This document shows positions 5,513-63,498 of a stretch of 64,000 bases of DNA, in pieces; within the stretch, counting starts at the first letter, position 1, and each line of letters opens with the position of its first letter. Source of the DNA: an uncultured Saprospiraceae bacterium (lineage in GTDB: Bacteria > Bacteroidota > Bacteroidia > Chitinophagales > Saprospiraceae). The stretch spans positions 1 through 64,000 of the forward strand of contig CALFWW010000101.1 in NCBI GenBank assembly GCA_937928575.1, written 5' to 3'. Made by a program: the position numbers and the translations under genes. The notes beneath the pieces were generated by a model. The model was given only the letters and a program-made list of their open reading frames with translations. It did not search any database and had not been told where the DNA came from.

Positions 5513-6316
5513 TTATTGAAGACCTCCAGGGGATGTATACTTTTTGATTGAATTATCAATTTCTTCTAGTCTGTTCTCAGGGTTGGGGTGGGTACTAAAA
5601 AATTCTGGTTGCCGATTGGGACCAGCAGACGCCGCCAGTATTTCCATAACTCCTTTCATTTGATGCGGGTCATATCCAGCTTTTAACATGAAGCGCACGC
5701 CTAAGTCATCACATTCTAATTCTTGGTCCCGACCATATTTCATGTTGATTACGTTTCCGATCATTTTTGCGGCTTCCGCTGTATTGTAATCTCCTGTAGC
5801 GAGTACGGCGGCACCAGTAAGTCCTTCTGTTAGTTGTTGTTTGGCAATTCTTTGAGCGGAATGCCGGGCAACGACATGACCTATTTCATGACCTAATACA
5901 CCTGCAAGCTGATCTTCATTGTGCAATTGTGCAAAGAGTGCTTCCGTAATAAAAATTTGACCACCAGGTAAAGCAAATGCATTAACCGTTTTCCGATCTG
6001 CTAACAAATGAAATTCAAAACGGTATCCAGTTTTTATTGCATCCGAATTTTCGACCAATCTAGCTCCTACTTTGTCAACCAGATCTTGCGCTTCTTGATC
6101 GGGTAGGAGGCCACCGTGTTGTTGCGCCATACGAGGAGCACTTTGAAGTCCGAGTGCGATTTCTTGTTCTTTGGTAATGCTGATATATTGTTTTTCACCA
6201 GTCAACTCATTGACCGTTGCTGAACCAAAATATTTCATGACAGAGAATGCTGCCATGACAAGACCGATGATTAGCATCATTTTAGTGGAGCCACCACTTC
6301 TTCTTCTACCGTACAT
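5513..6316 (-). CDS. Membrane-anchored M48 family zinc metallopeptidase
   Basis: A 267-residue protein. A basic N-terminus (MYGRRRSGG) is followed by one membrane segment (about 12-30), so the catalytic domain is probably periplasmic. The zinc site is HEIGH at 143-147, with the third ligand in ELECD at 199-203. FSTHPNPENRLEEI near 240 is typical of the YggG/LoiP and BepA-like M48 group. Such enzymes act in envelope protein quality control. The next gene upstream encodes a second membrane zinc peptidase, but a 270-bp gap with a large hairpin separates them. Confidence 0.9.
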   Translation of the reverse strand: MYGRRRSGGSTKMMLIIGLVMAAFSVMKYFGSATVNELTGEKQYISITKEQEIALGLQSAPRMAQQHGGLLPDQEAQDLVDKVGARLVENSDAIKTGYRFEFHLLADRKTVNAFALPGGQIFITEALFAQLHNEDQLAGVLGHEIGHVVARHSAQRIAKQQLTEGLTGAAVLATGDYNTAEAAKMIGNVINMKYGRDQELECDDLGVRFMLKAGYDPHQMKGVMEILAASAGPNRQPEFFSTHPNPENRLEEIDNSIKKYTSPGGLQ

Positions 6317-6357
6317 GTTTTTATTTTTTATTACTATTGGTGCTATGCTGATTCAAG

Positions 6358-6389
6358 TTGGCAACTAAGGAGCGATCATTTTACATTTG
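6358..6389 (+). promoter_or_regulatory. Candidate Bacteroidota promoter facing a long hairpin
   Basis: TTG at 6358-6360 and TACATTTG at 6382-6389 are 21 bases apart and match the Bacteroidota -33/-7 pattern (TTG, TAnnTTTG). Transcription would begin near 6396, just before the hairpin at 6406-6500, on the strand opposite to the flanking genes. No open frame of meaningful size follows. Confidence 0.45.
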
Positions 6390-6405
6390 GAACTAAGGAC
6401 CTTTA

Positions 6406-6500
6406 GAAGTATAGATATTAGGACGCTTCTACTTCAAAGGAAATGTTGAATAATAATCAAAATTTCCTTTGAACAAGAAGCGTCCAAAATTCTATACTTC
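6406..6500 (+). ncRNA. Long imperfect hairpin; candidate small structured RNA or palindromic element
   Basis: Three stem blocks pair in order: GAAGTATAGA (6406-6415) with TCTATACTTC (6491-6500), GGACGCTTCT (6421-6430) with AGAAGCGTCC (about 6476-6485), and TTCAAAGGAAAT with ATTTCCTTTGAA, leaving a loop of about 16 bases. It is preceded by a good promoter match on the plus strand. There is no clear T-run after it. It could also be a small mobile palindrome, or a terminator/processing hairpin for the minus-strand ypfJ-like gene. Confidence 0.35.
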
Positions 6501-6585
6501 AAAATATCAATCCCGTAATCGAAATAGATGCTTATATAATTATAAAATCAACCCACTTTAAAATCAACCAGCACATATTATTTAT

Positions 6586-7458
6586 TTACAAATACTGAGT
6601 ATTAAAAGTATCACCTTGTCTTAAGTCACCTGTTTCCAATCCTTTTCTGAACCATCTTACGCGTTGCTCGGAAGTGCCATGTGTGAAAGAATCAGGTCTG
6701 ACTGTGCCTGTCGATTTTCTTTGGATGTTGTCATCGCCGATAGCATGTGCTGCGTTCATGGCTTCTTCAATATCTCCGCTTTCCAAAATTCCTTTCATCT
6801 GATGTGCGTGATGTGCCCATACACCTGCTAGAAAATCTGCTTGTAATTCCAAACGAACGGAAAGGTCATTTTGAGCGACTTTACTGATTTTACCTCGTTG
6901 ACTATTAACATAATCGGTGAAACCCAACAAATTTTGCACGTGATGAGCGACCTCATGTGCGACTACATATGCCATTGCAAAATCACCCGAGACATCAAAA
7001 CTTCGATTGAGTTGTTCATAAAATCCTAAATCAATATAGACCTTATTGTCAGGGGGACAATAAAAAGGTCCGGTTGCTGCCGAAGCATGACCACAAGTGG
7101 AATGTGTTCTATCAGAAAATAAAACCAACTTGGGCGCTACATATCTTTTATTTAGCTGTTCCGGAAATAGCCGATTCCATACATCTTCTGTGTCCTTTAA
7201 CACAACAGATACAAATTGAGCTAATTCTTCATGTTCGCGTGCAGCTTGAGGATTTCGTTGTTGTTGATGTTGCTGCTGCTGTTGTTGTTGTGCAGCTTGT
7301 TGGAGTACTTGTTGACCGTCACCACCAAGTAAAGATACTACCAAGGCCAATACCAAAACACCGGCACCAATACCTACTCCGGTTTTAGCACCTCCACTCA
7401 TTCCTTGACCTCTGCGGTCTTCAATATTTTCACTTCCTTGTCTACCTTCCCATTTCAT
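6586..7458 (-). CDS. ypfJ: YpfJ-family neutral zinc metallopeptidase with polyglutamine linker
   Basis: A 290-residue protein of PF04228 (putative neutral zinc metallopeptidase, YpfJ). MKWEGRQGSENIEDRRG opens the family N-terminus, one membrane segment lies at about 28-46, and the zinc motif HEVAHH is at 168-173. GHASAATGPFYCPPD (about 123-137) and LELQADFLAGVWA further on are family hallmarks. Between membrane and catalytic domain is a Gln-rich linker (about 49-67), coded by CAA/CAG repeats at about 7258-7315 that could vary in length. The biological substrate is unknown. Total length is normal for the family. Confidence 0.9.
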   Translation of the reverse strand: MKWEGRQGSENIEDRRGQGMSGGAKTGVGIGAGVLVLALVVSLLGGDGQQVLQQAAQQQQQQQHQQQRNPQAAREHEELAQFVSVVLKDTEDVWNRLFPEQLNKRYVAPKLVLFSDRTHSTCGHASAATGPFYCPPDNKVYIDLGFYEQLNRSFDVSGDFAMAYVVAHEVAHHVQNLLGFTDYVNSQRGKISKVAQNDLSVRLELQADFLAGVWAHHAHQMKGILESGDIEEAMNAAHAIGDDNIQRKSTGTVRPDSFTHGTSEQRVRWFRKGLETGDLRQGDTFNTQYL

Positions 7459-29019: not shown

Positions 29020-29049
29020 TTATCACATATAGTATTAGAATTTGTGAAA

Positions 29050-29285
29050 AGCTCCAACGGAGCGGAATCACTAAAAATGGGCATCGCCCATTTACTAAAC
29101 ACCTATTATTGTTCAGCTCCAAAGGAGCATCAGCTTTTAAAATCGTGTTACAATTCGATTGGTTCCATTAAATATAAAAAATATTAAATCAGTTCTAAAA
29201 CTGCTTACGCTCCGTTGGAGCTTCTAATTTTTCCTTACAATTAAATGGGCGATGCCCATTTTTATTTCTTATGCTCCTTTGGAGC
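29050..29285. repeat. Six short palindromes in paired, inverted forms (REP-like)
   Basis: Three palindromes occur in order: AGCTCCAACGGAGC (29050-29063), AAATGGGCATCGCCCATTT (29075-29093) and AGCTCCAAAGGAGC (29115-29128). Their reverse complements follow in the same order: GCTCCGTTGGAGC (29209-29221), AAATGGGCGATGCCCATTT (29243-29261) and GCTCCTTTGGAGC (29273-29285). Each has a 7-8 bp or shorter stem and a 3-base loop whose orientation flips between the sets. Confidence 0.85.
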
Positions 29286-29319
29286 TTTCCGGAAACTTAA
29301 CCACATGAGAAGATATTAT

Positions 29320-59276: not shown

Positions 59277-60275
59277 ATGAATAAACAACTAATTTTAAAA
59301 AAACGACCAGTAGGTGCACCATCTGCGGACACCTGGCAATTAATAACCAATGAAATTCCAGAACCCCAAGAAGGAGAAGTGGTAGTACAGACCCATTATA
59401 TTTCTTTGGATCCTGCAATGCGGGGATGGATGAATGAAACAAAATCCTATATACCACCAGTTGCAATTGATGATGTGATGCGTGCAGGTACGATTGGAAA
59501 AGTCATCAAAGCGAACAATCACCCAAAGTTCAAAATAGGAGATGTGTTGACTGGATGGGGTGGTGTCCAGCAATATTTTGCAACCGATGGGAAAGGGCAT
59601 TTCAAAGTCGATACTTCGATGGTTCCAATGCCAAAATACATCGGAGCTTTAGGAATGCCAGGAATGACGGCCTATTTTGGGATATTGGAAGTTGGTAAAA
59701 TCAAAGAAGGAGATCGGGTCCTGGTTTCAGGAGCAGCTGGTGCAGTAGGAAGCGTAGTTGGACAAATAGCTAAGATAAAAGGATGTTCAGTAGTCGGGAT
59801 AGCAGGTGGAGCAGAGAAATGTAAATATGTTGTTGAAGAATTGGGATTCGATGCTTGTATCGATTACAAAAATGAAAATATCCATGCAGGAATCAAACAA
59901 CATTGTCCAAAAGGAATTGATGTATATTTTGATAATGTAGGGGGCGAAATTTTAGATGCTGCATTGGCAAGATTGCGAATGCATGCGAGAGTTGTTATCT
60001 GTGGTGCCATTTCTCAATACAACAATAAAGAAGCAATTGTAGGTCCCAAAAACTATCTATCCTTATTGGTCAACCGAGCAACCATGCAAGGAATGGTAGT
60101 GTTAGATTATGCGGATCGATACAAAGAAGCAGGCATGCAAATGGGGATGTGGATGATGCAAGGCAAATTGAAAACAGAAGAAGATATCTACGAAGGAATT
60201 GAAAATTTCTACGAAACCTATCAACGACTTTTTAATGGGGATAAGCGGGGGAAGCTAGTGCTAAAGGTAATTTAA
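59277..60275 (+). CDS. Zinc-independent MDR reductase of the prostaglandin reductase/CurA type
   Basis: 332 residues from the ATG at 59277 (MNKQLILKKRPVGAPSADTW); the longer frame starting inside the SDR gene is spurious. LDPAMRGWMNE, GAAGAVGSVVGQIAKIKGC (NADPH motif) and PKGIDVYFDNVGG are diagnostic for the leukotriene B4/prostaglandin reductase branch. Family members reduce the double bond of 2-alkenals and enones, including oxidised-lipid products such as 4-hydroxynonenal. This supports a lipid-derived 4-oxygenated acyl theme for the cluster. Complete. Confidence 0.93.
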   Translation: MNKQLILKKRPVGAPSADTWQLITNEIPEPQEGEVVVQTHYISLDPAMRGWMNETKSYIPPVAIDDVMRAGTIGKVIKANNHPKFKIGDVLTGWGGVQQYFATDGKGHFKVDTSMVPMPKYIGALGMPGMTAYFGILEVGKIKEGDRVLVSGAAGAVGSVVGQIAKIKGCSVVGIAGGAEKCKYVVEELGFDACIDYKNENIHAGIKQHCPKGIDVYFDNVGGEILDAALARLRMHARVVICGAISQYNNKEAIVGPKNYLSLLVNRATMQGMVVLDYADRYKEAGMQMGMWMMQGKLKTEEDIYEGIENFYETYQRLFNGDKRGKLVLKVI

Positions 60276-60281
60276 AATTAA

Positions 60282-60332
60282 AATAGGACGCCCAATGCTT
60301 AGGAGTACGTGAACACGACTAGTCGTCCTATT
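60282..60332 (+). repeat. Palindromic spacer unit 1
   Basis: AATAGGACG (60282-60290) pairs with CGTCCTATT (60324-60332) after the MDR gene stop. It resembles the units at 62215, 62310 and 63412: each begins with GAC and ends with GTC inside AT-rich DNA. Confidence 0.6.
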
Positions 60333-60352
60333 GAAATTATAAATTGAAAATT

Positions 60353-62194
60353 GAGTCCACTCCGAAAAGTAAAATATTAAAATAAGAATTAAAGGCTAAA
60401 ATTTATTAAATTTAGTCATGTATAAAAAGAGTGAATCAAAGCAAGGGGATTTATTCAAAGATGTTCAACAACATTTATCAGATCGAAAGAAAAAGGAATT
60501 GACAAATCCCCATTCCTGGCAGAATGTATTTTACGAAAATGTTTTTTGCAATATAGATGAAGATATATATTCGGTACTGTACAGTTCATCTGGTCGTCCC
60601 AATGCAAGTATACGAGAAATAATATGCATGATTGTATTAAAAGAAGGCAATGGCTGGAGTGATGAACAATTGTTTGACCAATGCGATTTTAATTTAAAAA
60701 TAATGTGGGCATTGGGTTTGCATAATATAGATGATAGTGTTCCATCGTCATCGACGTATTATGATTTCCGAAAAAGACTAACAGATTATCAAAAAAGCAG
60801 CGGTGAAGATTTATTAAAAAAGTGCTTTAATAAGGTGACAGTAAATCAGGTATCAAAACTAAAGATATCGGGATTGAAAGTTAGGTTGGATTCAAAATTA
60901 ATCAATAGCAACATAGCTTTAGTTGATCGAACGAGCTTGATATTGGAAGCAATAAGAGTTTTTATTAAGCCGCTTGAAATAGAAAAAATAAAGCCTAAAA
61001 TATCGAGTAGAAATTATGAATTGCTGGAGATATTGAAAACAAAGTCAACCTCAAATGTAATCTACACCTTAAGTAAGGCAGAGCAAGAAAATTTATTGGA
61101 TGAAATGGGTAAAATCATTCAGCAGTTAAAAAAGAACTTTGGAGGGGCAAAGCACATAAAGGCACTAAGGCGCATTTATAAAGAGCAATATTACGAAGTG
61201 GAAGAGAAGAATGAGAACAATAAACAGACGGGAGGGAAAACCTCAAAAAAGAGAAATGGAGGCAAAGGCAAAAAACAGAAAAAGCGAACTAAAAAATATG
61301 TACCCAAATTAAAGGCATCGAAAGATGTACCTGCAACAAGTATGCAGTCCATCCATGACACAGATGCAACATTTAGAAGAAAAGGTAAAGGAAATGGCGA
61401 ACAGGTTATATCAGGATATCATGCCAATATAACGGAAGTATATGGTGAGGAAGAAGTAAATTTAATTGTTGATACCCAAGTGGCAAAAGCCAATATTAAT
61501 GAAAATGAATTCCTAATTCCTTCTTTGGATAACAGCCAGGATGTATTACACCAGGGTTCCACATCAACAGACAGAGCAACAAAAATAGAAGTTGCAACAA
61601 TGGACGGTGGTTATGACAGTGTTGAAAATCGAAAAGAACTGAGTAAAAAAGAAAGGCCAAAATATAACATCACAAAATTCAAAGGAAGAAAAAGAAGATT
61701 CGATATTAAAGTTGACATAAGAGGGATAACAAGAGTCTACGATAAGCAGTTAAAAAAGCGATGTAAATTAACTTACTCAGAAAAGACAAAAAAACATATC
61801 ATCAATTATGGTAATAATGAGAAACGTTATTTAACGCAGAAAGAATTAGATGACTACATATTGTTGTGTCAAATAACTATAGACTCAGCAGCGGTGAGTG
61901 AAAGAGCAAATGTTGAATCAACAATCCATCAGGTATTTCATAGACTTGAAAAAAGGAATAAAATAAAATATCGAAGCATCGAAAAATGTAATTTGTATGT
62001 TATAAGTCGAGTTTTATGGGTGAATTTCAAAAGAATCCTCAAAAATGAGGTTTCAACTTTGATTTTTAGAATTCTGATATTCTCTTGTCTCATGGAGCAG
62101 CACAATTTTAAAAATCAAAATATTACAGTCCACTCGTCTTGATGAGTAAAATCACTTTTAATCTATCAAAAGCGGTACTTTTAGGAGTGGGCTC
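60353..62194 (+). mobile_element. Complete IS1182-like insertion sequence
   Basis: 1842 bp with imperfect terminal inverted repeats: GAGTCCACTCCGAAAAGTA at the left and, read inward from 62194, GAGCCCACTCCTAAAAGTA, matching at 17 of 19 positions. Identical AAAATT flanks (60347-60352 and 62195-62200) look like a 6-bp target duplication, although the context is AT-rich. It encodes one intact transposase. It splits the spacer between the two MDR genes and damages no gene. Confidence 0.85.
60418..62142 (+). CDS. IS1182-family DDE transposase
   Basis: A 574-residue transposase. The N-terminal DUF772-type region (RPNASIREIICMIVLKEGNG, then WALGLHNIDDSVPSSSTYYD) is followed by a coiled linker rich in Lys and Asn (about 260-300). 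The catalytic DDE residues fit Asp in SIHDTDATFRRKGKG, Asp in VATMDGGYDS and Glu in SERANVESTIHQVFHRL. The frame is intact, so the element may be active. It lies inside the inverted repeats at 60353 and 62194, 65 bp after the left end. Confidence 0.9.
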   Translation: MYKKSESKQGDLFKDVQQHLSDRKKKELTNPHSWQNVFYENVFCNIDEDIYSVLYSSSGRPNASIREIICMIVLKEGNGWSDEQLFDQCDFNLKIMWALGLHNIDDSVPSSSTYYDFRKRLTDYQKSSGEDLLKKCFNKVTVNQVSKLKISGLKVRLDSKLINSNIALVDRTSLILEAIRVFIKPLEIEKIKPKISSRNYELLEILKTKSTSNVIYTLSKAEQENLLDEMGKIIQQLKKNFGGAKHIKALRRIYKEQYYEVEEKNENNKQTGGKTSKKRNGGKGKKQKKRTKKYVPKLKASKDVPATSMQSIHDTDATFRRKGKGNGEQVISGYHANITEVYGEEEVNLIVDTQVAKANINENEFLIPSLDNSQDVLHQGSTSTDRATKIEVATMDGGYDSVENRKELSKKERPKYNITKFKGRKRRFDIKVDIRGITRVYDKQLKKRCKLTYSEKTKKHIINYGNNEKRYLTQKELDDYILLCQITIDSAAVSERANVESTIHQVFHRLEKRNKIKYRSIEKCNLYVISRVLWVNFKRILKNEVSTLIFRILIFSCLMEQHNFKNQNITVHSS

Positions 62195-62405: not shown

Positions 62406-63386
62406 ATGAAAGCAATACGGTGCATAAAACACGGACCACCATCAGACTTAGTGTACGAGGAAGTGCCAAATCTAAAACCGGGACCAAAAGAAGTGGTGAT
62501 GGCAGTGAAAGCATGTTCTTTAAATTTTCCAGACACGCTGATAATTCAAGGAAAATATCAATTCAAGCCTGACATGCCTTTTTCTCCGGGAAGTGATATT
62601 GCAGGAGTTATCAAAGAAATTGGTGCTGAAGTTAGAAACGTAAAAGTAGGAGATGAGGTCTTTGGATTTGTTGCGCACGGTGGATTTGCAGAACAGGTGA
62701 TTGTCAATGCAAAACAAGTCTTCCATAAATTACCTAACATGGATTTTCCGACTGCCGCTTCATTTATGATGGCGTATGGAACTTCTTATTACGCATTGAA
62801 AGATCGTGCAAATTTGAAAGAAGGAGAAACCTTAGTGGTACTTGGAGCATCAGGTGGAGTGGGTTTGGCTGCTGTTGAATTAGGAAAAATAATGGGTGCA
62901 AAAGTAATCGCGTGTGCATCCACCTCTGAAAAATTGGAGCTGTGTAAAAAACATGGTGCGGACGAACTCATCAATTACATGTCCGAAGATTTGAAAAAAA
63001 GAATCAAAGAATTGACCGATGGAAATGGCGCGGATGTTATTTATGATCCAGTAGGTGGAGATTTCTCAGAAGTGGCATTGAGAGCAGCTGCTTGGGAAGG
63101 CAGATATTTAGTGGTAGGTTTTGCAGCTGGCGACATTCCAAAAATCCCATTGAATTTGACACTCTTGAAAGGATGTCAGATTGTCGGTGTCTTTTGGGGC
63201 AGTTTCGCCATGAGAAATCCGAAAGGCAATATGCAAAACAGCATCGAGTTGATGACGATGTTCTCAGAAGGAAAACTCAAACCACATATTGACAAAATTT
63301 ATCCACTCAAAGAGGCACCTTTAGCACTTCAAGATATGATGGATCGGAAGGTGAAAGGAAAGGTGGTGATTACTACTGAAAAATAA
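62406..63386 (+). CDS. NADPH:quinone oxidoreductase-like MDR enzyme
   Basis: A 326-residue zinc-independent medium-chain reductase of the QOR group. PPSDLVYEEVPNLKPGP, SLNFPDTLIIQGKYQF, PFSPGSDIAGVIKEIG and GASGGVGLAAVELGK (NADPH motif) are characteristic, with NGADVIYDPVGGDFSE later. Such enzymes reduce quinones or enoyl groups by one or two electrons. In this location it may reduce an enone or enoyl-CoA-derived product. A palindromic unit follows its stop by 25 bp. Confidence 0.93.
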   Translation: MKAIRCIKHGPPSDLVYEEVPNLKPGPKEVVMAVKACSLNFPDTLIIQGKYQFKPDMPFSPGSDIAGVIKEIGAEVRNVKVGDEVFGFVAHGGFAEQVIVNAKQVFHKLPNMDFPTAASFMMAYGTSYYALKDRANLKEGETLVVLGASGGVGLAAVELGKIMGAKVIACASTSEKLELCKKHGADELINYMSEDLKKRIKELTDGNGADVIYDPVGGDFSEVALRAAAWEGRYLVVGFAAGDIPKIPLNLTLLKGCQIVGVFWGSFAMRNPKGNMQNSIELMTMFSEGKLKPHIDKIYPLKEAPLALQDMMDRKVKGKVVITTEK

Positions 63387-63411
63387 ATTATAAAATGAAA
63401 ATTTAAAATAG

Positions 63412-63455
63412 GACGACCATTGCGTATCCGTACAGATGTACACGCAATGGTCGTC
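63412..63455 (+). terminator. Palindromic spacer unit 4, possibly a terminator
   Basis: GACGACCATTGCGT (63412-63425) pairs perfectly over 14 bp with ACGCAATGGTCGTC (63442-63455). Position just after the QOR stop suggests a terminator, and AT-rich sequence follows, but there is no strict T-run. It is the best-conserved of the four units. Confidence 0.5.
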
Positions 63456-63498
63456 AATTTATATTTTTTAATTTATAATTTTCAATTCTCGCAGTTCG

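Follow-up and report, generated by a model that had tools for sequence, protein, structure and literature searches.

The palindromic hairpin between two metallopeptidase genes in the window (the whole 64,000-nt stretch of DNA analysed here, from an uncultured Saprospiraceae bacterium) is probably a gene-less, MITE-like copy of a dispersed palindromic element, part of an IVS-like class (after the intervening sequences of rRNA) that lies outside rRNA; mobility and processing are what we infer for it. A remnant of a small mobile element is a more likely origin than a promoter-driven small RNA gene, because the source genome holds about 25 palindromes built from short words, and because such a repeat brackets a gene for an intervening-sequence protein (IVP). 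Judged by its sequence, the window hairpin is best read as belonging to a class of word palindromes that also houses IVP genes.

A dispersed family of word-built palindromes

The window palindrome is 103 bp long, with two arms of 51 nt (6402-6452 and 6454-6504) that are 84% complementary (Table 1). An earlier reading of this stretch, made from the sequence only, had described a hairpin without an open frame, reading opposite to both neighbours, and this description holds. The RNA fold has a z-score of -8.49 on the plus strand (6330-6540) and -8.43 on the minus strand (6317-6585), and the DNA fold of 6390-6510 one of -11.90, in each case equalled by none of 200 shuffles; there is no ORF of at least 50 aa inside the palindrome; and both flanking genes lie on the minus strand. 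Counted from the ends of its model match, the copy is 70 nt from the stop codon on one side and 74 nt from the start codon on the other.

Table 1. Features at the hairpin locus (window coordinates)
Feature	Position	Strand	Basis or remark
Palindrome (hairpin), member of the dispersed family	6402..6504	none	Folding and arm pairing; R1 match at 6390-6516, both strands
Left core motif TTAGGACGCTTC, one mismatch to TTTGGACGCTTC	6418..6429	+	
Right core motif TTTGGACGCTTC	6477..6488	-	
Promoter-like TTG-21-TACATTTG	6358..6389	+	Probably a chance match
YpfJ-type neutral zinc metallopeptidase gene	6586..7458	-	NF050010, PF04228; stop towards hairpin
M48-family metallopeptidase gene	5513..6316	-	PF01435; start towards hairpin
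Segment holding the hairpin, missing between the YpfJ and M48 genes of congener G001	6335..6585	none	Approximate; edges by eye

A hairpin search of the source genome (a draft of 5.35 Mb in 284 contigs) found additional palindromic copies, bringing the family to about 25 places. They have a common core, TTTGGACRCTTC...GAAGYGTCCAAA, which is present in both arms, and outer arms made of tandem 8-bp words of the type WTTTRGNN; the inner parts vary among copies and are mostly palindromic as well. Allowing up to one mismatch, the core motif TTTGGACGCTTC occurs 54 times in this genome, compared with nine times for the reversed pattern, and motif pairs fold as palindromes at 18 places, plus one on contig C153. 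All but the long copy at C1:2121, that is 18 of 19, were aligned (alignment A2) and served as the source of a covariance model, R1. This model, in which the window palindrome is itself included and whose E-values are rough, matches 25 places in the source genome at E ≤ 1e-4, seven of them outside the model. The 8-bp period is apparent from the autocorrelation of 35 arms from 21 copies, with z = 18.1 at lag 8 and z = 14.2 at lag 16; these arms are not independent, since both arms of a copy are counted.

Two copies are weak additions: the one at C110:4759 (C110c) pairs poorly with itself, and the one on C125 can be aligned over 22 arm positions only. The number of places may also be inflated, since C248 and C122, with 90% identity over 572 bp, could be a single locus assembled twice, and the end of C220 (L017; contig end at 22131) repeats the C153 hairpin locus, so that these two may likewise be one. 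Contig C220 stops within a family hairpin whose full form stands on C153, as though assembly had failed at the palindrome. When 20 single-arm matches of the motif were tested for a partner arm, strong partners appeared only at L042 on C1 and at the second IVP locus on C110 (scores of 22 and 24); the remaining 18 scored 8 to 11, and many of these fall inside long ORFs and resemble chance matches.

IVP and GxxExxY genes between inverted arms

The source genome encodes four IVP genes and four PDDEXK_3/GxxExxY genes. On contig C110, an IVP gene (23S-rRNA intervening-sequence protein; 123.8 bits to PF05635 and 121.2 bits to TIGR02436) has a family copy on each side, and related arms, 76% complementary, enclose another IVP gene there. 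A similar layout occurs in another genus (genome G035, contig C39), where R1 matches both sides of an IVP gene and the word is GTTTGGCT; contig C14 of that genome has a gene-less palindrome made of the same word. The C110 and C39 layouts were the reason for a general test of inverted flanks, in which the 350 bp upstream of a gene were aligned with the reverse complement of the 350 bp downstream, and the result was compared with 100 dinucleotide shuffles per gene.

For a non-random sample (the best-scoring matches, at most 30 per search and one per genome, plus the four IVP and four GxxExxY genes of the source genome), inverted flanks within the taxonomic family scored above all shuffles at 21 of 29 IVP loci and 18 of 26 GxxExxY loci, eight of each failing to do so, compared with 1 of 26 M48 control loci of relatives and with 2/58 and 1/50 for displaced windows at the same loci. 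Across the phylum, 13 of 27 IVP loci exceeded all shuffles (displaced windows, 0/60). These counts follow the loss of some loci to contig ends (IVP 4/33, GxxExxY 7/33, M48 3/29, IVP across the phylum 3/30, and Y1 transposase 3/8). Inverted flanks also occur around other genes: two of the five testable Y1-transposase loci of the source genome likewise exceeded all shuffles. Direct repeats between the flanks did so at 7/29 IVP, 8/26 GxxExxY, and 0/26 M48 loci, as expected of word arrays able to grow locally without moving.

Where IVP loci exceeded the shuffles, the arms were periodic in 19 of 21 cases (p < 0.05, uncorrected), with a best lag of 7 in seven, 8 in six, 14 in five, and 9 in one. Arms at GxxExxY loci were periodic, again by uncorrected p values, in 9 of the 17 that were long enough (18 given), at lags of 8, 9, 11, and 12. 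The words themselves vary from genome to genome. IVP genes (PF05635/TIGR02436) are common, being found in 54 of 61 sampled genomes of the family and 116 of 148 of the phylum. The protein has some likeness to Avd of diversity-generating retroelements (NF033474 and PF22296 match below their cut-offs), so that movement by a route related to RNA or RT is worth considering. Our searches of open-licence PMC papers turned up no description of IVP or GxxExxY genes inside word palindromes, which is weak evidence of novelty. A passage on GxxExxY in PMC8934634 is unrelated to repeats, IVP genes are placed in cas loci in a passage of PMC3936711, and the phrase "intervening sequence protein" occurs once in PMC10910872.

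Palindromes of this kind might instead have grown locally from word repeats, by slippage and template switching, with neither an element nor mobility involved, the copies being alike through their words alone. A word period that stays constant while the sequence changes is consistent with such growth, as is the symmetric pairing of the arms, and template switching between imperfect inverted repeats is a known route to homogenised arms (passages in PMC7202029 and PMC8604942). However, unlinked copies have in common a 12-bp core and alignable sequence, and IVP genes are found within such arms far more often than the controls are; local growth by itself is therefore unlikely, if worth keeping in mind.

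Arm pairing, relatives, and neighbouring genes

The sequence-only reading proposed that the hairpin is a small structured RNA gene, transcribed from a plus-strand promoter; it might then be one of a whole family of RNA genes. The promoter-like site is present as it was described, with TTG at 6358-6360, a 21-nt gap, and TACATTTG at 6382-6389, the palindrome arm beginning about 13-17 nt further on. Its standing as a consensus promoter is more doubtful: the pattern TTG-N19..23-TANNTTTG has 14 matches in the window, counting both strands, against 10.95 ± 3.84 in 20 dinucleotide shuffles, and so is not enriched. At the density found in the window, the chance of meeting it in a given 100 bp of one strand is about 1%, before correction for post hoc choice of the site. 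The match here is probably due to chance. A search of the whole window against Rfam at the gathering threshold found a tRNA and nothing else.

Covariation, which had been suggested as a check, does exist across the family copies. The 18-copy alignment has 92.5% of its cells paired (89.2% in shuffles), 16 cells changed on both sides (8.5 in shuffles), and a covariation score of 0.162 (0.106 in shuffles), the latter two values reached by 0/500 shuffles, though such scores are inflated by kinship among copies. Two further measures are weaker: pairs with a both-side change (6 vs. 3.9, reached by 13/500 shuffles) and further pair types (15 vs. 13.5, reached by 88/500). Covariation alone does not show RNA function in this case, since the family consists of palindromic repeats. 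The more general warning is that intergenic hairpins which covary may be repeat palindromes instead of RNA genes.

The R of the core is matched to the Y of the opposite arm as GC in 8 cases, AU in 6, GU in 2, and other in 2. With copies oriented by their neighbouring genes, stem mismatches comprise 39 G.U and 31 A.C (p = 0.40), as counted in 19 oriented copies of the 21 given (two divergent ones were left out, and four of the 25 places were not given). Selection on RNA from either strand should tilt this ratio, G.U being tolerated over A.C; as there is no such excess, pairing is more simply explained by maintenance at the DNA level, which seems to be how the arms are kept complementary.

The closest congener, G001 (same genus; M48 gene 94% identical), has the YpfJ-M48 gene pair just 19 bp apart, with both flanks aligning at 82% DNA identity, and lacks about 250 bp including the hairpin. 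At this single unfilled site, no clear target-site duplication could be seen by eye. The repeat unit is not cleanly delimited, because about 250 bp differ between the congeners compared with 103 bp for the hairpin. Gain and loss at the locus cannot be polarised either, since among the 30 M48 loci compared, each spanning at most 1.5 kb either side, YpfJ is beside M48 only here (L121) and in G001 (L122).

R1 matches seven places in G001. Five of these were compared with loci of the source genome, and two proved to be the same sites as copies there, with the sequence changed and the palindrome retained; among the compared copies, the nearest relative of the window hairpin is at G001:C10:33711 (82% over 67 bp). 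A search of 100 relatives gave R1 matches in seven genomes at E ≤ 0.001, the source genome included. One match (L156, in G016) does not have the look of a word palindrome, and was not used. The exact palindrome pattern, searched for in a collection of 84,980 species, returned three stretches. L119 (LLEU01000030.1, an Acidobacteria MAG, positions 359-485) consists of arrayed TTGGACACTTC words, one half of them in inverted orientation, and is matched by R1 at E = 2.4e-5; from its sequence, the likeness may reflect common descent or merely a similar word, and it is not counted in the family. This R1 match falls outside the phylum of the window. L118 and L120, near-identical sequences on opposite strands (R1 E = 0.002), are not counted either.

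Absence of the hairpin from close relatives, together with a lack of covariation, was to have told against an RNA gene; the absence is seen at the G001 locus, and the lack of covariation is not. On the side of an RNA gene are thus the promoter-like site, the strong fold, and the covariation among copies. Against these stand the promoter pattern that is not enriched in the window, the family of about 25 places, the congener locus without a hairpin, the lack of any G.U/A.C asymmetry, the two covariation measures of five that are weak, and the position of most copies next to the stop codons of neighbouring genes. A promoter-driven RNA gene is accordingly very improbable, and the evidence favours what had been offered as the alternative, in which the palindrome is an insertion and the promoter match is due to chance.

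Family copies lie between ORFs. Using model-match edges for the 25 copies, there is a stop codon within 18 nt of the copy in 15 of 22 measurable cases, and a start codon in 3 of 23; 16 copies are between tandem genes, 3 between divergent and 1 between convergent genes, and 5 contexts are not determined. ORFs were called mechanically and overlap a copy by up to 16 nt; one flanking ORF on C174 would overlap its copy by about 50 nt if the first start codon were used. This stop-codon bias is explained no less well by selection that removes copies harming promoters and start sites than by targeting. The least probable reading is that of a terminator or 3'-end mRNA-stabilising hairpin serving the upstream gene, to which the 15 of 22 stops might point: a scan for terminators (a G+C stem with a T run behind it) found no site on either strand of 6402-6504, convergent genes surround just 1 of the 20 copies whose two neighbours could be determined, and the window copy is some 70 nt from the stop and missing in the congener.

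Known systems and a possible mechanism

Short hairpin IVSs without an ORF exist in Salmonella. As described in PMC4990558, 23S rRNA IVSs have stems formed by terminal inverted repeats, contain an S23/IVP ORF in some bacteria (Coxiella, Leptospira), and are cut by RNase III, and their functionality and origin are termed unclear. The window palindrome resembles them in its long terminal-inverted-repeat stem and patchy occurrence, and an IVP (S23) gene stands between family members at C110, and one between related palindromes at G035:C39. It differs in its position between protein genes, away from any 23S rRNA helix, in its arms of tandem 7-8-bp words, and in having no ORF, and excision by RNase III is putative in its case. 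Being outside rRNA, it is not an IVS by membership.

The family is like MITEs in being short, gene-less, palindromic, and multi-copy, with inverted repeats and with sites that are polymorphic between congeners. In contrast to MITEs, no cognate transposase was identified among the Y1-type transposases surveyed, and no clear target-site duplication at the one unfilled site.

The STRRs of cyanobacteria, which are short tandem repeats of heptamer type, can be compared with the words of the window family. TAACTGA heptamer arrays, known from Beggiatoaceae, Cyanobacteria, and Bacteroidetes, are likewise intergenic tandem words of 7-8 bp that are missing in some near relatives (passages of PMC4679880, in which no link to IVP was found), and P6b of the cyanobacterial trnL intron is a stem-loop of repeat motifs (a passage of PMC4476775). 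Unlike heptamer arrays, the words of the window family form inverted arms, and these recur at many loci.

REPs, by the definition in a passage of PMC3733652, are palindromes of 20-40 bp that end on one side in an unpaired tag, GTAG or CGTC. The present family shares with the REP/RAYT system that its palindromes are dispersed, extragenic, and multi-copy, but these are about 100 bp long, with a symmetric core paired in both arms and no unpaired one-sided tag. The core is found within one mismatch at none of the eight Y1 loci of the source genome, so that flanking of a RAYT-type gene is not seen; one of these loci, L232, has a weak R1 match (20.4 bits, E = 0.034).

If the window hairpin is a MITE-like copy, the full element would have the form arm-IVP-arm, an extragenic counterpart of the rRNA IVS, and bare hairpins would be shortened copies spreading in trans, which might persist beside stop codons as the place of least harm. 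Complementarity would be kept mainly by events at the DNA level, namely template switching between arms and slippage of words. If it is part of an operon transcript that comes from the YpfJ side, the stem would be a substrate for an RNase III-type enzyme; regulatory effects, if any, would be incidental. The analysis saw no movement, and among the eight Y1 loci it found no transposase linked to the family.

A bolder generalisation, which we offer only tentatively, would be an undescribed class of mobile elements in this lineage (Bacteroidota, judging from its proteins), in which inverted arms of tandem 7-8-bp words surround an IVP (or GxxExxY) gene and bare hairpins move in trans, the rRNA IVS being the special case of landing in rRNA loops. 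The word varies by genome and the period stays at 7-8 bp, as if the repeat were measured by a structure-reading protein, perhaps an Avd-like IVP. Should IVP genes normally sit in word palindromes outside rRNA, the origin and movement of IVSs would become testable.

The window also contains other palindromes. A long nested one at 29041-29295 is made of repeated AGCTCC/GGAGCT words, with arms of 54 nt that are 83% complementary and 147 nt apart; 29030-29310 folds at about -93.6 kcal/mol. A second family, with AATTTAAAATTAAAATAGGACG-type arms, has copies at 60269-60345 and 63385-63481, neither more than about 10 nt away from a stop codon (of ORFs that end at 60275 and 63386). The latter copy, taken as 63380-63486, has 37 matches in the source genome at E ≤ 0.01, itself included, and two of these are directly downstream of the GxxExxY gene on C233 (5724-5760 and 5785-5823). 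A 574-aa ORF at 60418-62142, by eye a putative transposase, adjoins the hairpin at 60269-60345. The Y1-transposase loci whose inverted flanks exceeded all shuffles are L226 (C195:47699) and L232 (C234:8393); the upstream arm of L232, TAGGACCGTTGTTACGTGTGTGCACGTGAGG, recalls the second family, which for this reason might be RAYT-linked.
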